Of a DNA stretch of 35,556 nucleotides, positions 22,415 to 35,134 are shown one piece after another (positions within the stretch are counted from its first letter, which is position 1; each line of letters opens with the position of its first letter). The DNA comes from Streptomyces chattanoogensis (GTDB lineage Bacteria > Actinomycetota > Actinomycetes > Streptomycetales > Streptomycetaceae). The position numbers were made by a program, and so were the translations under genes. The notes beneath the pieces were generated by a model, which ran no database searches, was not told the DNA's origin, and was given only the letters and a program-made list of their open reading frames with translations. The stretch spans positions 1 through 35,556 of the forward strand of contig NZ_LGKG01000176.1 in NCBI RefSeq assembly GCF_001294335.1, written 5' to 3'.

Positions 22415-24763
22415 TCACCGGCACTTGTGGTGGCGGCACTTGGGGCTCGTGATCGGGGCGTCCGGCGTGGGCGCGGGAGTGAGGGTCCCGCCCTTGCCGT
22501 TCTTGCCTGTTCTGTCGGTCCGGCCGGCCTTTCCGCCCTTGTTGGCGGGGGTGGTGGTCGGGGAGGGCTTGGGGGCGCCCGGTTCGTCGGTGCCGTGGCC
22601 GAGGGGGACGGGGGCGGGGAAGGGCGCGTCGGGGAGGCCGGCGAGGGCGTCGGTCATGTACTGGGTCCAGATTTCGGTGGGGATGTCGCCGCCGAACACC
22701 TTTTGCAGGCCGCCGACGCCCACCAGGGACTGGAGCTGGGGGTGGGCCGCGTCCTCGCGGAAGAGGACCACGGAGGTGGCCAGTTGGGGGGTGTAGCCGA
22801 CGAACCAGGCCGAATGGTAGTCGTCGGTGGTACCGGTCTTGCCCGCGGCTGTCCTGCCGAGGGCCTTGGCCTTGGTGCCGGTGCCCCGGGCTATGACGCC
22901 CCGGAGGACGTCGGTCACGTTGTCGGCGACGGCCGTCGGCAGCGCCCGTACGGGGGCGGGGGCGGTGAAGCCGGGGAGTGGGGAGCCGTTGTGGGTCACC
23001 TTGGTCACCGAGTAGGGGGTGGCCCGCATACCGGAGGCGGCGAAGGTCGAGTAGGCGCCTGCCATGCGAATGGCGCTCGGCGTCGAGGTACCGATGTAGA
23101 AGCCGGCGCTGGGGGCGGCGAGGCTGCTGTGGCGCAAGCCGAGGGCTTGCGCCGTCCCGGCCACGTTCCGGTAGCCGACGTCCTCTCCCAGTTGCACGTA
23201 CGGCGTGTTGACCGACTGCTCCATCGCCTTGCGCAGAGAGATGTGGCCCCAGCGCCGGGGGGTGTCGTTGTGCTGGTGGAGGAGGCCGGTGGGGTCCTTG
23301 TCGTCGGTGACGTCATTGCCCTGTTGGTCCTTGATCTTGATGCCGTCGTCACCGTTGAACTTGCTGGCCGGGGTGATCCGCGCCGGGGGCTCGCCGGGTT
23401 TCAGTACGGCCTGGTGCTGGAGCGCGGCGGCCAGGACGATGGGTTTGAACGTCGAGCCCACCGGGACGCCAGAGGTGTCGGCGTTGTCCGAGTAGTGGGC
23501 GTGGGCGTAGCCGGAGCCGCCGTAGACGGCGAGGATCCTGCCGGTCGTGGGATCGACCGAGGCGGCTCCGACCTGGACGTCCCGGTCGGCCGACCGGTGG
23601 GCGGGGTCGAGGCGTTGCGCGCGGACCTTGGCGACGGCCCTGGCCAGCTTCGCGGTCCGTTTCCTGTCGAAGGTGGTGTGTATCTGGTAGCCGCCCCTGC
23701 TCAGGCTGCTGTCGGTGATGCTCGGGTCGTGTGCCTGGGCGTACGACCGGGCGAGCTGGACCAGGGCGGTCTGGCCCGGGAGGCCCGAGCCGAGGGTCCA
23801 CTTCCTGGGTGCCGGGAATCCCGCGGCCGCGTACCGTGCCCGCTGCCCCGGCGTCAGCTTGCCGATCTTCACCATCCGGTCGAGCACCCAGGACCAGCGT
23901 GCCCGCGCCTTTGCCCTGGCCGTGGGGTCCGAGTCCGCGTGCTGGATGAGGCTCGGCTCGTTGACCGCCGCGGCGAGGAAGGCTCCCTGGCTCGCGTCGA
24001 GTTTCTGCACCGGAAGGCCGTAGTACATGCGGGCCGCGGCCTGGATGCCGTTGGCCTGCCGGCCGAAGAAGCAGGTGTTCAGATACCCCTGAAGGATCTG
24101 CTGCTTGCTCATGGCGGCGCCGATCTTGGTGGAGATCAGCAGTTCCTTGATCTTCCGCGAGACCGTCTGCGACGGGTCCAGGTAGGTGTTCTTGACGAAC
24201 TGCTGGGTGATCGTCGACCCGGACTGCACAGTGCCGCCCTCGGCCATGTGGGCGACGGCGCGGAGGATGCCCTGCGGGTCGATGCCCGGGTCGGTGTAGA
24301 AGGAGGCGTTCTCCGCGGCGATGAAGTCCCACCGCACGTCGGCGGGGACCTGTGAGAGCGGGACGTTCTGCCGGTTGACGCTGCCGTCGGTCGCCAGGAC
24401 CCTGCCGTCCGACCAGTAGTAGACGTTGTTCTGCAGCAGTGTCGAGGGGTTGGGGTCGGGGATGGTGACCGTGGCGTAGGCATAGCCGACGGCCGCCGCC
24501 GTGCCGCCGAAGAAGAACAGGAAGAGCGCCAGCAGTTGACGTATCGACGGCAGCCAGCGGCGCGGGCCCGTCCTGCCCCGGTGCGGGTAGTCGATCCACC
24601 GTCTCTTCTCCGGCCTCTTCTCCGGCGCCGTTCTCCGGGCACGGCGTGACGTGCCCGGTCCGGGGGGCCGGTGCCGCGAGGGGCGGTGGCCCGTGGTGCG
24701 GACATCCTCAGCAGGCGTGCCGCCACGGGACTGCTGCGACGGTCGGCGCCGGTGTCCGCTCAT
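22415..24763 (-). CDS. Class A penicillin-binding protein (transglycosylase/transpeptidase)
   Basis: The 782-residue enzyme polymerises and cross-links peptidoglycan outside the membrane. It has a basic Pro-rich cytoplasmic tail (1-72), one membrane helix (about 73-97), a GT51 domain (about 115-300) with catalytic Glu151 in AAENASFY and SGSTITQQ (181-188), and a transpeptidase domain with SxxK at Ser437-Lys440 (STFK), SxN at 517-519 (SVN) and KTG at 642-644. GT51 motif 1 reads EN instead of the common ED. The C-terminus is a Thr/Pro/Lys-rich tail ending KCRHHKCR. It is the last gene of the mat-like operon, which suggests that wall synthesis is coordinated with export of a surface polysaccharide. 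Confidence 0.93.
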   Translation of the reverse strand: MSGHRRRPSQQSRGGTPAEDVRTTGHRPSRHRPPGPGTSRRARRTAPEKRPEKRRWIDYPHRGRTGPRRWLPSIRQLLALFLFFFGGTAAAVGYAYATVTIPDPNPSTLLQNNVYYWSDGRVLATDGSVNRQNVPLSQVPADVRWDFIAAENASFYTDPGIDPQGILRAVAHMAEGGTVQSGSTITQQFVKNTYLDPSQTVSRKIKELLISTKIGAAMSKQQILQGYLNTCFFGRQANGIQAAARMYYGLPVQKLDASQGAFLAAAVNEPSLIQHADSDPTARAKARARWSWVLDRMVKIGKLTPGQRARYAAAGFPAPRKWTLGSGLPGQTALVQLARSYAQAHDPSITDSSLSRGGYQIHTTFDRKRTAKLARAVAKVRAQRLDPAHRSADRDVQVGAASVDPTTGRILAVYGGSGYAHAHYSDNADTSGVPVGSTFKPIVLAAALQHQAVLKPGEPPARITPASKFNGDDGIKIKDQQGNDVTDDKDPTGLLHQHNDTPRRWGHISLRKAMEQSVNTPYVQLGEDVGYRNVAGTAQALGLRHSSLAAPSAGFYIGTSTPSAIRMAGAYSTFAASGMRATPYSVTKVTHNGSPLPGFTAPAPVRALPTAVADNVTDVLRGVIARGTGTKAKALGRTAAGKTGTTDDYHSAWFVGYTPQLATSVVLFREDAAHPQLQSLVGVGGLQKVFGGDIPTEIWTQYMTDALAGLPDAPFPAPVPLGHGTDEPGAPKPSPTTTPANKGGKAGRTDRTGKNGKGGTLTPAPTPDAPITSPKCRHHKCR

Positions 24764-24782
24764 GGGCTCGGATCACTGTCCT

Positions 24783-24862
24783 CTCGGTACAACTCGGTAT
24801 AACTCGGTACGACTGAGTACGACTCGGTACGGCCCAGGACGGCTCAGTACGGCTCAGTACGA
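24783..24862. repeat. Decamer tandem repeat between GT2 and PBP genes
   Basis: Eight contiguous imperfect copies of a 10-bp unit (consensus CTCGGTACGA; variants include CTCGGTATAA, CTGAGTACGA and CTCAGTACGG) fill 24783-24862. They take up nearly the whole gap before the PBP start and run into the last codons of the deacetylase-GT2 gene. A period of about one helical turn means the same DNA face is repeated. Function unknown: a regulator array or replication slippage product. Confidence 0.8.
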
Positions 24863-27299
24863 CTGCGGTGTCTCGTGCGGTGCGGGCTGCCGGAAATCGT
24901 TGTGGGGTGGGGGCTGCCAGTAACCGTTGTGAGGTGGGGGCTGCGGAAGGCCGTCGTGCGGTTCCGGCTGGTGGAAGTCGGCGTACGGCGCCGGCTGCGG
25001 CAAGGTGTCGTACGGCGCCGGGTGCGGCAAGGCGTCGTACGGCGCCGGGTGCGGCAAGGCGTCGTACGGCGCCGGGTGCGGGGAGCCGGGATCCTGCGGA
25101 GGCAGGTCATGGCCGGGCGCCTCCGCGCCCACCGGGGCCCGGAGGCTGCCGTACCGCTCCATGCGCTGCCATCTCAGGCGGGAGCCCGAAACGGCGGTGA
25201 AGACGGACTGGATCACCACCAGGTACATCAGCTGCCGGTAGACGAACTGCTGCAACGGCAGGCTCCACAGCGGACCGGGCCGTTCCCCGTCCAGGCGGAA
25301 CGCGTACCGGCCCATCAGGAGTTGCAGCAGCAGGAAAGCCAGCCAGAGCCCGATGATCCGGACCGGGTCGAGGAAGAGCAGCCCGTACAGGGCGAAGATG
25401 TCCACGACGGGGGCGAGCAGGGGCAGCAGGACCTGGAAGAGGAGGAGGTAGACCAGGCCGCGGCGGCCGAGTTTCCCGGCGGCGCCGCGCTGCACCAAGG
25501 CGCCGCGGTGCTTCCACATCGCTTGCAGGGTCCCGTAGCACCAGCGGTACCGCTGCCGCCACAGGGCGTTCAGTGACGCGGGCGCCTCCGTCCAGGCCAC
25601 CGCGCCCTCCTCGTAGACCACACGCCAGCCGGCGCGGCACAGCGCCATGGTGAGGTCGGTGTCCTCGGCGAGGGTGACGTCGCTGACGCCGCCGAGGGCG
25701 AGCAGCGCCCGGCGGCGGAACGCGCCGACCGCCCCCGGGACGGTCGGCATGCACTCGGCGAGGTCGAACAGGCGGCGGTCGAGGTTGAAGCCGACCACGT
25801 ACTCGATGTGCTGCCAGCGGCCCAGCAGGCCACCGCGGTTGACGACCTTGGCGTTGCCCGAGACGCCGCCCACCCGAGGGTCGGCGAAGGGCTGCACGAT
25901 AGTGCGGACGGTGTCGGATTCGAAGACCGTGTCGCCGTCGACCATGACCACCAGCTCGCACGAGGCGGCGGCGAGTCCCGTGTTGAGCGCGGCGGGCTTG
26001 CCCGCGTTCTGCTGCCGGATCACCCGCACCCCCGGCAGGTGAAGCGACTCCACCAGGTCGGCGGTGCCATCGGTGGAACCGTCGTCCACCACGATGATCT
26101 CCACCGGATGGTCCGAAGCGAGCAGTGAGCGCACGGCCGCCTCGATCCCGGCGCTCTCGTTGTACGCGGGGACGATGACGCTGACCGGTTCGGTCACCGG
26201 CGGCCCCCAGGACCGGCCGCGGAGCCCCGTCCGCAGCCGCCGGTGCCGGCGGGCCGCGATCAGCACGACCGCCGCGCGCAGCACGCTGATCGCTCCGGCC
26301 GCGCACATCAGCACGCCGAGCAGCCACACGGTCCAGTCGCCGGCCTGGAGCAGCTCGATGAGGGCCACGCCCTGCAGATGGTCGCCGGGCCCGGCGGGCC
26401 GGACCGACGCGGCCATGCCGACCGAGGCTCCGACCGTGGCGAACCGGAAGCCCTGCGCCTTGAGCCGTGGGATCAGGGCGCTCAGCGCGGTGGCGGTCTG
26501 TGACCGGTCACCGCCGCCGTCGTGCATCAGCACGATCTGCCCGGCGTGGCCGTGGGGTGTGGCATGGGCGAGGACGCGGTGCACACCGGGCCGCTGCCAG
26601 TCCTCGGCGTCCCGTGTGGAGAGCACCGTGACATAGCCTTCCGTGTCCGCCTGCTTGAGGACGGACCAGTCGGCATCGTCCAGCGCGTCGTTCTGCGAGG
26701 AGTACGGCGGCCTGAGCAGTGCGGTGGTGACCCCCGCGGCGCCCGCCACCGCCAGCCAGCTGCGTCTCCCGCAGCTCCAGGGAACGCTGCCAGGGAGCGA
26801 TGCGGGCCAGGTCAGGATGGGTGAAGGTGTGGATGCCGATCTGGTGGCCCTCGGCGACGATCCGGCGGACCAGCTCCGGGTGGGCCACGACCTGCGTTCC
26901 GACGACGAAGAACGTCGCGTGCACACGGTTGCGGCGCAGTACGTCCAGGATGCGCGGCGTCCAGACGGGGTCGGGGCCGTCGTCGAAGGTGAGGGCGATG
27001 GTGCGGTCCCTGACCCGGGCGGTGTGCGCGGAGGTGGCGGCGTCCGCGATCACGGGGCCGCCGTGGGTCACCTGACGGGGGACCGCCTCGTTCCGTCCCC
27101 GGGCCCCGGTCACGGCGTCCGAGGTGATCCGGAACATGTGGTGGGTGTACCCCTGGAGCAGGAGGGCCGTCGACAGGGTCACCGCGAGCACGCTCAGCAG
27201 GAGCCAGTGGGCACGGGGTCTGAGCCGGCGGGTGCGGCCGTGGCGGCGGGCGGGAGCGTTGGGGTGTCGGCGGTCGGTCACGTCAGAGCCTTGGATCAC
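24854..27299 (-). pseudogene. Polysaccharide deacetylase-GT2 fusion (MatB-like), frameshifted
   Basis: The N-terminal part is a membrane-anchored NodB-type deacetylase: helix at about 32-50, TFDDG (104-108), HTFTH (157-161), then RPPYS and LMHDGG. After two membrane helices comes a family 2 glycosyltransferase with VIVPAYNE, VDDGSTDGT, VDGDT, EDTDL and QRYRW, then more helices and a Pro/His/Tyr tail. This layout is that of Streptomyces MatB, which with MatA makes a poly-N-acetylglucosamine that glues hyphae together. The frame breaks between HTFTH and RPPYS: GCCAGCCA at 26751-26758 is a 4-bp duplication, and removing one copy restores an exact 813-residue frame. As read, translation from the GTG at 27299 stops at 26508, losing the transferase. 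Its GTG overlaps the upstream TGA. Confidence 0.85.
24982..25089 (-). repeat. 27-bp coding tandem repeat
   Basis: Four near-identical 27-bp copies (starting at 24982, 25009, 25036 and 25063) encode the nonapeptide PHPAPYDAL and variants in the cytoplasmic tail of the glycosyltransferase. Degenerate copies continue towards the C-terminus (HQPEPHDGL, QPPPHNGY). The repeats keep frame, so copy number can vary without breaking the gene. Confidence 0.9.
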
Positions 27300-31162: not shown

Positions 31163-32467
31163 TCACTGCACACGTAGCTCCGCCGGTGACGGCAGAGCCG
31201 GCAGCCTGGTGACCGGGGACGCGAAGAGTCCGATCGCCACGGCGGCGGAGCCGATCGCCGCGACGGTCAGGGCGCCTTTGCCGCCGAGCGCGCCGGTCAG
31301 GAGACCGGCGGACAGGCCGCCGAGTGCGCCGCCGCCGAACAGCAGCGTCCGGAAAGCCGCGGTCATCCGCCCCATCATCGACGCGGGAGTGCTCGTCTGC
31401 CGGAGGCTGACGATGATGACATTGGCGACGCCGAGTCCCAGGTACGTGACGAAGAAGGACGCCACGCACATCGCGATCACCAGCCAGTCCGGTCCGGCGG
31501 CGGTGGCGAGTAGGCTCGGGCCGAGCAGCAGGGCCAACTGGGCCACCAGATAGCCGCGTCCGAGCCGGAACCGCTTGATCACCCGTCCGGAGATCAACGC
31601 GCCGATGAGTCCGCCCACCGAGGCCGTGGCGAAGATGCCACCGAGAACCGACGGGGCGAGATGCAGGTCATGTGTGCCGTGGAGCAGGAACATCGTCCAT
31701 ACGGTGATCATGGAGAAGTTGCAGCAGAACCCCACGAGCGCCAGCGCTCGCAGGATCCTGTCCCTCATGACCCAGCCGAGACCGTCCCGCAGCTCCGACC
31801 AGATGTGGCGGCGAGCGCCCTGCTCCGGACGCGGCTCGGGTGTGCGGATGAGCAGCAGGGAGATCACGGAGACCAGGTACGAGAAGGCGTCCACGATCAG
31901 TGCCGCCGGTGCGGTCAGCGCCGACACCAGGATGCCTGCCAGACCGGGCCCCGCCACATCCGCTGTGGAGGAGCTGACGCCCGTCTTCGCGCTCGCCTCT
32001 ACATAGTGACCGGGGTCGCGGACCAGGGTGGGGACGTACGACATCCAGCTCACGTCGAACAGCACCGACGCGACACCGACGGCGCAGGCGATGACCGTCA
32101 GGGTGACCATGCCGAGGGCGTCCGCCCAGTACAGGACGGGAACCAGCGCCAGCAGGACCATCCGGACCAGGTTCGCGGCGAGCATGACCCTGCGCCTGCG
32201 GACCCGGTCCACCCACACCCCGAATATCAGGGCGAGGCCGAGGTAGGGGACGAGTTGCAGGAACCGCAGCAGTCCCACCTGCTCGTCGCTCGCCCCGAAC
32301 GCGCGGATGGCGGTGAGGGGCAGCGCGAGGGTCGTCACCTGGGTGCCGAGCAGCGACACGGTCTCGCCCAGCCAGAACGTGAGGAAGTCCTTGTTGTGCC
32401 AGAGACTCCTGGATGAGTTTCCGGCAGCCGCCTCCGCGCCGGCCGCCGCCACCTGCGCCGATGCCAT
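31163..32467 (-). CDS. MFS exporter (MFS_3/EntS type)
   Basis: The 434-residue transporter starts MASAQVAAAGAEAAAG and has about 12 membrane helices, with FWLGETVSLLGTQVTTLALPLTA as helix 1 and the motif-A loop GVWVDRVRRRRVML between helices 2 and 3. Related members export siderophores, macrolides or other drugs. Its ATG shares one base with the stop of the aminotransferase gene (TGATG), so the two are translationally coupled and probably act on the same compound: synthesis or modification by the aminotransferase, then export. The substrate is unknown. Confidence 0.9.
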   Translation of the reverse strand: MASAQVAAAGAEAAAGNSSRSLWHNKDFLTFWLGETVSLLGTQVTTLALPLTAIRAFGASDEQVGLLRFLQLVPYLGLALIFGVWVDRVRRRRVMLAANLVRMVLLALVPVLYWADALGMVTLTVIACAVGVASVLFDVSWMSYVPTLVRDPGHYVEASAKTGVSSSTADVAGPGLAGILVSALTAPAALIVDAFSYLVSVISLLLIRTPEPRPEQGARRHIWSELRDGLGWVMRDRILRALALVGFCCNFSMITVWTMFLLHGTHDLHLAPSVLGGIFATASVGGLIGALISGRVIKRFRLGRGYLVAQLALLLGPSLLATAAGPDWLVIAMCVASFFVTYLGLGVANVIIVSLRQTSTPASMMGRMTAAFRTLLFGGGALGGLSAGLLTGALGGKGALTVAAIGSAAVAIGLFASPVTRLPALPSPAELRVQ

Positions 32468-33723
32468 CAGTGGGTCTTCTGCCCGTGCTCGGCGAGTGCG
32501 GCGACGGTTGCGGCGACCGCGTCGACCTCTTCCTCGGTGTTGTAGTAGTGCGGTGACAGCCGGAGGCACCAGTCGACGTCCTTGTCGTTGAAGTCGTACT
32601 GCGCGAACTCCCGGAAGCTCAGGGCAGAGTTGATGCCCTTCTCGTCCAGGGCCGTCTTGAACGGCTGCGGCTGCCAGCCCTCGACTCCGAAGGTGACGAG
32701 GGCCGCCGGGGCCGGGCCGCGGTCGAGGAGCCGTATGCCGGGGATGTCTGCCAGGTGGTCGCGCAGCCGGGCCGCCAGAGCGGGCGTCCGGCGGGAGATC
32801 GGCTCCAGGCCGACCCGAAGGGCGTAGCGCACGGCCGCCGCGCAGCCGAGCAGGGTGGCGTACGGGAACTCCCACTCCTCGAACCGTGCCGCGCTGTCCA
32901 CCGGCCGGTACGTGTCGGGCCCGACCCAACGGGCGCCGTACATGTCGATGAACAGGGGCTCGTAGCCCTCCTGCAGGACGCGGTCGGAGACGTAGAGGAA
33001 GCCCGAACCGCGGGGGCCGCGCAGGAACTTGCGGCATGTCCCGGTGAGCAGGTCGCAGCCGATCTCGTCCACGTCGAGCGCGTACTGCCCCACCGACTGG
33101 CAGGCGTCCACGAGGTAGAGCAGTCCCAGCTCCCGGCAGTGGCGGCCTATCTCGGCCACCGGCTGCACGAGGCCGGAATTGGTGGGCACATGCGTCGCAG
33201 CAACGAGGCGGGGGCGGCGGGACCGCATGAGCGCCGCCATGGCGGGGACGTCGACGCCGCTGCCGTCGGGGTGGTCGGGGGCGTGGACGATCTCGACGCC
33301 GAACCGTTTGCGCAGGGCGAGGAACGCGATCTGGTTGGAGATGAAGTCGTTGCGCGTGGTGAGGATGACGTCGCCGGCCCGGAAGTCGATCGCCGACAGG
33401 GCCTTGGTATACGCATGGGTCGCGCTGCCGGCGAAGGCGATGTTGCCGGGACCGGTGCCCAGGAGCTCGGCGATCGACGCGTAGAAGTCGCGGACCTGGA
33501 CCTCCCGTGCGGCGGAGGCTTCGTATCCGCCGATGCCCGCCTCCAGTTGGAGGTGATCGGTCATCGCCGCGAGGACCGGGCGGGCCACCAGGCCGCAGCC
33601 CGCGTTGTTGAAGTGGATGACCGACTCGCAGCCCGGGGTGTCGGCGCGCAGCGCCGCAATCTCCGCCGCCGTGTCGAGGAGCGATTCTCCAGCGGAGAGG
33701 AAAGCGTTACTCTGTTGTCTCAT
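32467..33723 (-). CDS. Class V (fold-type I) PLP-dependent aminotransferase/lyase
   Basis: The 418-residue enzyme has FNNAGCGLVARPV (38-50), GSATHAY (99-105), THVPTNSG, the cofactor-contact motif VDACQSVGQ with Asp206 and Gln209, and the Schiff-base lysine Lys232 in TGTCRKFLRGPRGSGFLYV. This is the family of cysteine desulfurases, isopenicillin-N epimerase and EgtE-type C-S lyases; the reaction is not evident. The second half ends with DWCLRLSPHYYNTEEEVD. The ATG at 33723 directly abuts the divergent regulator start and there is no room for a ribosome site, so a leaderless transcript is likely. An operon with the following MFS gene is clear. Confidence 0.9.
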   Translation of the reverse strand: MRQQSNAFLSAGESLLDTAAEIAALRADTPGCESVIHFNNAGCGLVARPVLAAMTDHLQLEAGIGGYEASAAREVQVRDFYASIAELLGTGPGNIAFAGSATHAYTKALSAIDFRAGDVILTTRNDFISNQIAFLALRKRFGVEIVHAPDHPDGSGVDVPAMAALMRSRRPRLVAATHVPTNSGLVQPVAEIGRHCRELGLLYLVDACQSVGQYALDVDEIGCDLLTGTCRKFLRGPRGSGFLYVSDRVLQEGYEPLFIDMYGARWVGPDTYRPVDSAARFEEWEFPYATLLGCAAAVRYALRVGLEPISRRTPALAARLRDHLADIPGIRLLDRGPAPAALVTFGVEGWQPQPFKTALDEKGINSALSFREFAQYDFNDKDVDWCLRLSPHYYNTEEEVDAVAATVAALAEHGQKTH

Positions 33724-33734
33724 GTCTGAGAGTA
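33708..33734. promoter_or_regulatory. Mirror-image -10 boxes for back-to-back leaderless transcripts
   Basis: TACTCT at 33708-33713 (plus) and the same hexamer on the minus strand at 33734-33729 flank a 15-base centre containing CATG, in which both start codons lie (plus ATG 33722-33724, minus ATG 33723-33721). Each hexamer ends 5-8 bases before its own start codon, the spacing expected when transcription starts at or next to the ATG. Each promoter then lies inside the first codons of the opposite gene. No standard -35 is obvious, which would suit activation by the encoded MocR protein. Confidence 0.55.
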
Positions 33735-35134
33735 GCAGTACTGAGGCACTGGTAGGGATACTCCGTACGGAGATCGACCGTCTCGCGCCCGGCGACCGGC
33801 TGCCCAGCAGCCGGGAGTTGACGGGGCGTCATGGTGTCAGCCCGGTGACGGTGTCGAGGGCGTTCGCCCAACTGGCAGCCGAGGGCGAGGTGGTCACCCG
33901 CCCGGGCAGCGGCACCTACGTCGCCCCACGCCGCGCCCGCTCGGCCGGCGATACACCGGACACCTCGTGGCAGGCAGTGGCACTCGCCGGGCGTGACGTC
34001 GATCCGGGCGCCGCGGACGGCCTTTCGGATGCGGTGCCCACGGGCGCGATCGCCATGGCAGGCGGCTATCTGCACCCCTCGCTCCGCCCGGAACGGGCGT
34101 TGAGTGCGGCGCTGGCCCGCGCAGCCCGCCGCCCCGGCGCCTGGGACCGGGCACCCGCCGCGGGCCTGGCGCCGCTGCGCGCGATCTTCGCCCAAGCGGC
34201 GGGAAGCGCCGTCGGCCCGGAGGATGTGCTGGTCACCGGCGGCGGCCAGGGCGCACTGTCGATGCTGTTCCGGGCGCTGGCCGCGCCGGGCAGCCCGGTA
34301 CTGGTGGAGTCGCCGACGTACCCGGGCGCGCTGGCCGCCGCCCGCGCGGCGGGGCTGCGCCCGGTGGCCGTTCCGATGGACGGCGACGGTATCCGCCCCG
34401 ACCTGCTGGCCGACGCCTTCGCCGTGACCGGCGCCCGGCTGCTGTACTGCCAGCCCACCTTCCACAATCCGACCGGCACCGTGCTCGCGCCGGCGCGCCG
34501 CCGCCAAGTCGTGGACGTGGCCCGCGCCGCCGGGGCGTTCCTCGTCGAGGACGACTTCGCCCGCCACCTCGGCCACGGCGGCCCGGTGCCTCTCCCCCTG
34601 GTCGCAGACGACCGCGACGGCACGGTGGTCCAGCTGACCTCACTGACCAAGCCGGCCTCGCCGAGCCTGCGCATCGGGGCGGTGATCGCCCGTGGACCGG
34701 TGATGCGGAGACTGCAGGGGATGCGCCGGGTGGACGACTTCTTCATCGCCAGGCCGCTGCAGGAGGCGGCCGTGGAGCTGGTGAGCACCCCCGCGTGGGA
34801 CCGGCATCTGCGCGCCCTTTCCACGCACCTGAGGGAACGTTGTGCGGTACTGGCCGGGACCATGGCGCGCGAACTGCCCGACTGGACTCCGACCCGGATC
34901 CCGGAAGGTGGCCTGCATCTGTGGGTCCAGCTCCCGCCCGGCCTTGAGGACTCCGGCGTCGCGGACGCGGCACGGGCCCATGGTGTGGCGGTCAACGCGG
35001 GCGCCCGCTACTTCCCGGCCGAGCAACCGGGCGCCTGTCTGAGGCTCGGTTTCGCGGCCTCGGAGAACCCCGCCGACCTCGCAGAGGGCGTCCGCCGCCT
35101 CGGCGCAGCGGCACGCGCGTGCGCTACGGCATGA
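33722..35134 (+). CDS. MocR-type GntR regulator with aminotransferase domain
   Basis: The 470-residue protein fuses an N-terminal GntR winged helix (about 5-70: DRLPSSRELTGRHGVSPVTVSRAFAQLAAEGEV and GSGTYVA) to a fold-type I aminotransferase-like domain (about 105-465). That domain keeps YCQPTFHNPTG (about 242-252), FLVEDDFARHL and the PLP lysine Lys310 in SLTKPASPSLRIG. MocR proteins sense PLP or an amine or amino acid bound as an external aldimine and usually control a divergent gene. Here that is the class V aminotransferase-MFS operon, whose start codon overlaps its own. Confidence 0.92.
   Translation: MSESSSTEALVGILRTEIDRLAPGDRLPSSRELTGRHGVSPVTVSRAFAQLAAEGEVVTRPGSGTYVAPRRARSAGDTPDTSWQAVALAGRDVDPGAADGLSDAVPTGAIAMAGGYLHPSLRPERALSAALARAARRPGAWDRAPAAGLAPLRAIFAQAAGSAVGPEDVLVTGGGQGALSMLFRALAAPGSPVLVESPTYPGALAAARAAGLRPVAVPMDGDGIRPDLLADAFAVTGARLLYCQPTFHNPTGTVLAPARRRQVVDVARAAGAFLVEDDFARHLGHGGPVPLPLVADDRDGTVVQLTSLTKPASPSLRIGAVIARGPVMRRLQGMRRVDDFFIARPLQEAAVELVSTPAWDRHLRALSTHLRERCAVLAGTMARELPDWTPTRIPEGGLHLWVQLPPGLEDSGVADAARAHGVAVNAGARYFPAEQPGACLRLGFAASENPADLAEGVRRLGAAARACATA

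Follow-up and report, generated by a model that had tools for sequence, protein, structure and literature searches.

A MocR regulator gene and a divergent aminotransferase gene that share one CATG start site in Streptomyces chattanoogensis: conservation of the site and a predicted operator across it

RESULTS

Organisation of the locus

The window analysed here is a stretch of 35,556 nucleotides (nt) from Streptomyces chattanoogensis (contig NZ_LGKG01000176.1). It contains a gene for a MocR-type regulator and, on the opposite strand, a gene for a class V enzyme dependent on pyridoxal 5'-phosphate (PLP), here called the aminotransferase, and a single CATG provides the start codons of both, Table 1. 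The two genes overlap by 2 nt and there is no intergenic DNA between them. A TACTCT hexamer lies on each side of the CATG, at 33708-33713 on the plus strand, 8 nt before the MocR ATG, and at 33734-33729 on the minus strand, 5 nt before the aminotransferase ATG. Together the hexamers form a perfect 6 + 6 nt inverted repeat with a 15 nt spacer, centred at 33721 and hence 1.5 base pairs (bp) away from the centre of the CATG. An earlier examination of the letters of the window (the sequence-only reading) had claimed both the overlapping start codons and the position of the hexamers, and both claims were borne out.

The MocR protein has an N-terminal GntR domain (PF00392, 4.7e-12, residues 13-67) and a C-terminal aminotransferase domain (PF00155, 4.9e-24, residues 154-460), and the lysine of its SLTKPA motif is invariant in 8/8. 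It scored under the curated NCBIfam cut-offs for YczR (241.6 of 487.4), PdxR (231.8 of 320), EhuR (177.1 of 480) and GabR (67.8 of 600). The class V enzyme was under the curated cut-offs for EgtE (154.9 of 400) and SufS (125.2 of 475.1), and is predicted to belong to the same superfamily as EgtE and the SufS cysteine desulfurase. Its first ~20 residues are poorly conserved as protein, and distant PLP enzymes can be aligned with it only from about residue 14-22 onward. Among the matches listed for the best 80 of 303 relatives, its closest named relative is that of Streptomyces inhibens, with 95% identity.

Table 1. Features of the shared start site and the adjoining genes (positions are those of the window; aa, amino acids).
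Feature	Position	Strand	Remarks
Shared CATG	33721..33724	both	Start codons of MocR (+) and aminotransferase (-); CATG in 166/167 homologous sites
MocR regulator gene, 470 aa, GntR winged helix-turn-helix + aminotransferase class I/II domain	33722..35134	+	ATG 33722-33724
Class V PLP enzyme (aminotransferase) gene, 418 aa, predicted cysteine-desulfurase / EgtE-like superfamily	32467..33723	-	ATG 33723-33721
Left arm TGCTACTCT, predicted extended -10-like element of the aminotransferase promoter and operator half-site	33729..33737	-	Within MocR codons 3-6; TANNNT 167/167, preceding TG 157/167
Right arm AGCGTTACTCT, predicted -10-like element of the MocR promoter and inverted half-site	33703..33713	+	Within aminotransferase codons 4-7; TANNNT 160/167
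Third box GAATCGCTCCT, direct repeat of the right arm	33677..33687	-	23 bp deeper in the aminotransferase gene, 35-45 nt before the MocR start; columns +36..+46
MFS transporter gene	31163..32467	-	Overlaps the end of the aminotransferase gene via TGATG (stop/start overlap)

Conservation among aminotransferase loci

A search of the genus at 1e-60 gave 29 aminotransferase matches in 28 of 199 genomes. In all 8 close orthologues, the window included, a MocR gene diverges on the same CATG, and among the remaining 21 distant loci (L009-L029) there was no MocR match and the element was present in 0/21. The enzyme alignment was then used to scan the species collection; there were 303 relatives, and the best 80 of them were analysed. 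These span 5 orders and 21 genera (Streptomycetaceae 33, Streptosporangiaceae 26, Pseudonocardiaceae 11, Micromonosporaceae 6, Kribbellaceae 3, Nocardiopsidaceae 1), and the sample was not selected for the element because the search patterns sat in the body of the enzyme. The CATG was found in 79 of these best 80 loci and a MocR match in 77. In two loci (L032 and L062) the contig ends 50-70 nt from the site and the MocR gene is beyond view. Locus L054 was considered as a CATG exception and ruled out by reading the DNA; the CATG element is present and is followed by an N-terminal insertion.

The sole exception is Longispora albida (L095), which has TATG and no MocR gene at the locus. The last T of the MocR-side TANNNT has been lost there, and the left arm and the core of the right arm, AGCGCTA, are kept. 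The MocR gene is located elsewhere in this genome, where it has a complete CATG element with an MFS gene on the other side. The product of this MFS gene is similar to that of the third gene of the window, and its N-terminus, MRDKNSA..., is similar to the N-terminus of the aminotransferase. Longispora is one natural experiment in which the start codon and the -10 decay and the box stays.

The MocR gene is altered at two further loci. In [Actinomadura] parvosata subsp. kistnae the MocR frame is shifted after ~43 codons, either really or by a sequencing error. In Planotetraspora kaengkrachanensis (L065 and L170) the MocR gene has been moved and inverted; the aminotransferase gene retains an element with a 20-aa remnant of the MocR frame, and the MocR gene retains its own element opposite a 28-aa open reading frame (ORF).

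A homologue of the MFS gene was found downstream in 43 of 81 aminotransferase sites (tblastn, 1e-20). The other 38 gave no match at this threshold, which ruled out the MFS gene as an obligate part of the locus.

Conservation among regulator loci and exchange of the partner gene

The MocR protein was searched for in the genomes of three odd loci. Paralogous MocR genes (L173 and L174) were found with the element opposite EamA-type transporters (Pfam for L173), and the L173 regulator was then used as a query. At 1e-90 it gave 85 matches in 79 of 296 genomes of the class, with identity down to 40%, and a CATG was present at the regulator start, in frame, in 85/85 (30/30, 53/53, the window and L008). 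In 16 of those 53 it lies 3 to 66 nt off the start expected from the alignment. The CATG is carried by all 83 further loci obtained through homology to the regulator, mostly opposite an EamA-like transporter. Pfam confirmed EamA in 8/8 EamA-type partners tested, and for the others the EamA label comes from how similar the translations are. When the phylum was sampled, 13 of 198 genomes gave a match, 4 of them outside the class; all 4 out-of-class loci have the CATG, a partner that is EamA-like as judged by eye, and GTTA instead of GCTA in both arms.

The element is therefore found with unrelated partners, namely aminotransferase, MFS and EamA proteins, and the partner gene is exchangeable while the element persists. 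The zero-gap CATG pair is the rule for the whole of this MocR family rather than a local oddity. Neither of these points, nor the larger three-box element to which the hexamers belong, figured in the sequence-only reading. The genome of the window itself has a second MocR gene (L195, G000:C57:17899-19329) with the same CATG element and an EamA transporter opposite. At 15 sites, all of one family (f18; L224-L236, L238 and L262), the partner ORF has 27-59 aa and both TANNNT arms and the CATG are intact; these elements may be a vestige, encode a leader peptide or serve autoregulation only.

Architecture of the element

For counting, the sites were merged into a set of 167 comprising 81 of aminotransferase type including the window, 70 of EamA type, 15 with a short partner ORF and 1 MFS. 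The aminotransferase alignment had 80 rows (L030-L109 minus L054, plus the window), and L054 was restored to give the 81. Left out were the second copy of the element in L170, loci L298 and L300-L302, and loci L001-L008 (L001 is the window; L002, L004, L005 and L007 recur among the named loci). The 167 sites are related by descent and the counts given here are not independent. The CATG was present in all but one of them. Every site has a TANNNT motif exactly 5 nt ahead of the partner ATG, preceded by TG in the number given in Table 1, and 160 have one exactly 8 nt ahead of the MocR ATG. Conservation of the CATG and the hexamers had been set beforehand as a test, and the sequence-only reading passes it; orthologues with later starts and a normal intergenic region, which would have spoken against it, were looked for and none was seen among the loci examined.

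With the A of the partner ATG numbered 0, the consensus of the aminotransferase sites is A-S-T-G-Y-T-A-Y-Y-N-T (-16 to -6), CATG (-1 to +2) and A-N-R-R-T-A-R-Y-R-Y-T (+10 to +20), the second half-site being a nearly identical inverted copy of the first. In general the left arm is AGTGCTAYYNT or near it, followed after 15 nt by a right arm ANRRTAGCGCT. Few positions of the arms are as constrained as the T, A and T of TANNNT, and the AGCGC before the right TANNNT is conserved beyond the needs of a -10. A third box lies at +36 to +46. Relative to the A of the MocR ATG the three boxes are at +7 to +17, -19 to -9 and -45 to -35. With a strict 6-of-8 match the third box gave a peak at an offset of 23 in 28 of 70 EamA-type and 13 of 81 aminotransferase-type sites (41/151 together), and the other offsets had at most 2 sites each among those listed. 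In the aminotransferase set a looser consensus for it, GAANCRCTHCT, stands out strongly. Between -46 and +60 the remaining columns of high conservation belong to this box or are -39, -27 and -20, which are at MocR codon positions 1/2.

Tetramers resembling a Shine-Dalgarno sequence (GGAG, GAGG, AGGA) were found at -18 to -5 in 0/167 sites for either gene, as against 682 of 5886 random 14-mers from the same loci. A consensus scan of 33400-34100 in the window gave no -35/-10 pair.

Selection at the DNA level

Within the gene bodies, third codon positions are 92% G or C (GC3). An A or T nevertheless stands at the third position of partner codons 5 and 7 in 167/167 sites each (12.5 and 10.9 expected), as it does in MocR codon 4 (15.5 expected); the same holds for MocR codon 6 in 142 (11.5 expected) and for partner codons 13 and 15 in 146 and 108 (21.4 and 6.2 expected). 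The expected counts are those from body codon usage for the same amino acids, about 6.5-9% at fixed codons. Since A/T-ending codons are fixed despite the high GC3, there is selection at the DNA level within both reading frames.

Controls and rarity

In a control family of YczR-type MocR regulators the element was found in 0/28 loci (from 24 of 60 genomes; 23 over the YczR cut-off). Four control loci (L274, L276, L278 and L286) have a formal CATG in the regulator frame opening an opposite-strand ORF of more than 200 aa, and three of these were taken to be chance shadow ORFs in GC-rich DNA. That in L274 is 81 nt upstream of the aligned regulator start and opens a 227-aa ORF; it may be a second, unrelated shared start. 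In a FastTree phylogeny of 119 full-length MocR proteins, the element-bearing rows were split from 12 YczR-type controls by one change, and four labels (controls and three partner types) needed three changes, the minimum possible; the control branches are long.

In 1.2 Mb of one related genome the element occurred once, at the orthologous pair, and it was absent from three shuffles. A crude gene caller, on which the base rate depends, gave 142 divergent pairs and 27 formal CATG coincidences in the same DNA, the orthologue among them. Most of the 27 were judged internal or non-coding. Besides the orthologue there is at most one plausible real shared CATG (block 2, 141714, uncertain), and this judgement from position and score is rough, codon scores being low for the true pair too. 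Across 17,778 ATGs of this DNA, TANNNT stood exactly 5 or exactly 8 nt before the ATG in 0.09% each.

DISCUSSION

A predicted operator over two predicted, facing promoters

The results are best accommodated if the element is a MocR operator laid over two facing promoters, and this is probably the case as far as can be judged from the DNA. The two TANNNT promoters, each within the opposite gene, would face each other, and the opposite mRNAs would begin at the shared CATG or within a base or two of it, giving leaderless or near-leaderless translation. Both -10 elements would lie inside the arms of the inverted repeat, with the third box repeating the right arm. A MocR dimer most likely binds the boxes and occludes both promoters, and so would repress its own gene and the partner. 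Occlusion of both promoters would be the simplest action of a bound regulator because of the position of the boxes relative to both starts. An amino compound on the PLP-fold domain would then alter which boxes MocR holds and release the partner. We infer that both genes are repressed by MocR until an amino compound is bound; EamA and MFS transporters and a cysteine-desulfurase-like PLP enzyme would fit the export and breakdown of such a compound.

The leaderless back-to-back pair proposed in the sequence-only reading stands in part. The zero gap, the lack of any Shine-Dalgarno-like tetramer and the TANNNT inside the opposite gene on each side agree with it, but the gaps of 5 and 8 nt do not agree with the local preference for 6-7 nt. 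In the related genome TANNNT is enriched before ATG at 6 and 7 nt (0.24 and 0.26%), with no enrichment at 5 or 8. The starts may be suboptimal, the 5' ends may be a base or two off, or the hexamers may be kept in part as operator.

This enrichment at other gaps is one of several observations that weigh against the proposal of an operator over two facing promoters. The MocR-side TANNNT is missing in 7 of the 167 sites (L062, L095, L223, L237 and L259-L261), and two of the four out-of-class loci (L298 and L302) lack its last T. In L223, L237 and L259-L261 the MocR side reads TTNNNT and the left arm is still TANNNT. The third box is clear by the strict count in a minority of sites. Core to core, the boxes are 27 and 23 bp apart; these spacings do not amount to whole helical turns, the usual case according to PMC5320631. 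Alternative start codons occur within 12 codons in 74 of 167 MocR frames. Finally, arm-to-arm agreement was 7.68 of 12 as against 7.47 for re-paired arms (standard deviation 0.075, uncorrected for kinship). Concerted change of the arms was considered as the main proof and dropped, covariation within the 167 sites being weak: T at -12 occurs in 7 left arms, the mirror base in 14 right arms and both in 5. The GTTA/GTTA arms of the out-of-class loci are supporting evidence only.

Alternative explanations

The start codons might have been wrongly assigned, in which case one gene or both would begin elsewhere than at the CATG. In the window the MocR frame does offer a GTG 51 nt upstream, the aminotransferase frame having CTG only, and to the alternatives in MocR frames given above can be added 14 of 167 partner frames with another start codon within 12 codons. 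In the window, however, the first further ATG, GTG or TTG comes only at codon 46 or later of the aminotransferase and at codon 33 or later of MocR, and the CATG is kept throughout the set except as TATG in the one locus where the regulator starts elsewhere. A longer MocR is impossible as a rule because the MocR frame of L004 closes 2 codons upstream, and such a form may exist in the window itself as far as its own letters go. Misassignment is thus very improbable. A more serious possibility, though still an unlikely one, is that MocR activates the partner in the manner of GabR while repressing its own gene. GabR is an activator (PMC6917764, consulted in part), and the portion of PMC5320631 consulted mentions an anti-activator of PdxR, but boxes that lie at or below the partner start would be expected to block polymerase and not to recruit it.

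The arms could also have one function rather than two. If they were MocR boxes only, with the promoters further inside the opposite genes and the mRNAs carrying leaders, then gaps that miss the optimum, the five sites with TTNNNT and the empty scan for a -35/-10 pair would cause no difficulty. However, no Shine-Dalgarno-like tetramer stands before either start in any of the 167 sites, high conservation outside the arms is confined, between -46 and +60, to the third box and to MocR codon positions 1/2, and the T, A and T of TANNNT are among the positions of the arms most constrained. This explanation is accordingly given a small chance, below that of activation. Smaller again is the chance that the arms are kept merely as two -10 elements, MocR acting elsewhere or on other genes. 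The invariant positions are indeed those of TANNNT and the covariation of the arms is weak, but Longispora keeps AGCGCTA although it has no MocR start at that site and its MocR-side TANNNT has lost the final T, AGCGC is more conserved than a -10 demands, the distance of 23 bp at which the third box repeats the right arm is fixed, and YczR-type MocR loci are without the element.

Comparison with known systems

The systems of PdxR, GabR and TauR likewise have a MocR protein, a divergent target, boxes in both orientations and a PLP-fold sensor domain. Unlike them, the present loci have zero intergenic DNA, boxes and predicted promoters in both coding sequences and one CATG for both starts. Two direct and one inverted box make up the commonest predicted type of MocR operator, 32% of regulons according to section 9 of PMC5320631, and the same paper, citing Tramonti 2015, gives apo-PdxR as favouring direct and PLP-PdxR as favouring inverted repeats. 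In the YczR-yczE pairs of Actinobacteria, too, a MocR gene and a gene for a membrane protein diverge and the boxes are conserved, but the intergenic regions there are 27-274 bp according to PMC4944035. For AnsR of Corynebacterium glutamicum, an operator within the first codons of a leaderless gene has been demonstrated, and the portion of PMC9145765 consulted describes a leaderless mRNA, conserved N-termini of the orthologues and repression at the start site, all resembling what is proposed here. AnsR differs in being a GntR protein of the FadR subfamily that acts on one operon in one direction, with no second gene starting on the same bases. In Streptomyces coelicolor, promoters are similarly TANNNT and 21% of primary starts are leaderless, with AUG preferred and regulators frequent; a shared start is not mentioned in the text of PMC4895711 that was consulted. 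A search of titles and abstract openings, mostly without subscription papers and preprints, found among the papers listed no zero-gap MocR pair with a shared start, and RegPrecise tables may hold part of the family.

These loci fit their regulatory DNA, both likely promoters and the opening codons of the two proteins into about 45-60 bp, a packing whose register is kept across much of the phylum. Operator searches restricted to intergenic DNA could miss this CATG-sharing MocR family. The loci offer a test bed for the choice of MocR between inverted and direct boxes, for exclusion of polymerase between facing promoters, and for an operator that dictates protein N-termini and passes to new genes. 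With facing promoters whose transcripts separate at the CATG, a polymerase working from one would have to pass over the promoter of the other. A bolder proposal, and a tentative one that we would not favour on balance, is that the element is an ancient actinobacterial cassette acting as a toggle set by the ligand. Polymerases would exclude each other between the promoters, and MocR would shift between the inverted pair of boxes, with both promoters blocked, and the direct pair of right arm and third box, so choosing between two leaderless mRNAs that start back to back. Such a cassette could be portable as the first ~15 codons of a new gene, which it would bring under the control of MocR, as is suggested by the similar M(R/K)xxxSA starts of the aminotransferase, EamA and MFS partners.

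Other features of the window

Elsewhere in the window a GT2 glycosyltransferase ORF (24854-26926, minus strand) overlaps a polysaccharide-deacetylase-like ORF (26508-27299, minus strand) in a different frame, and deacetylase matches were found in both. A PBP1A-type gene (22415-24763, minus strand) adjoins them, the group covering 22415-27299. The overlap is possibly a frameshift in a cell-wall or exopolysaccharide group.

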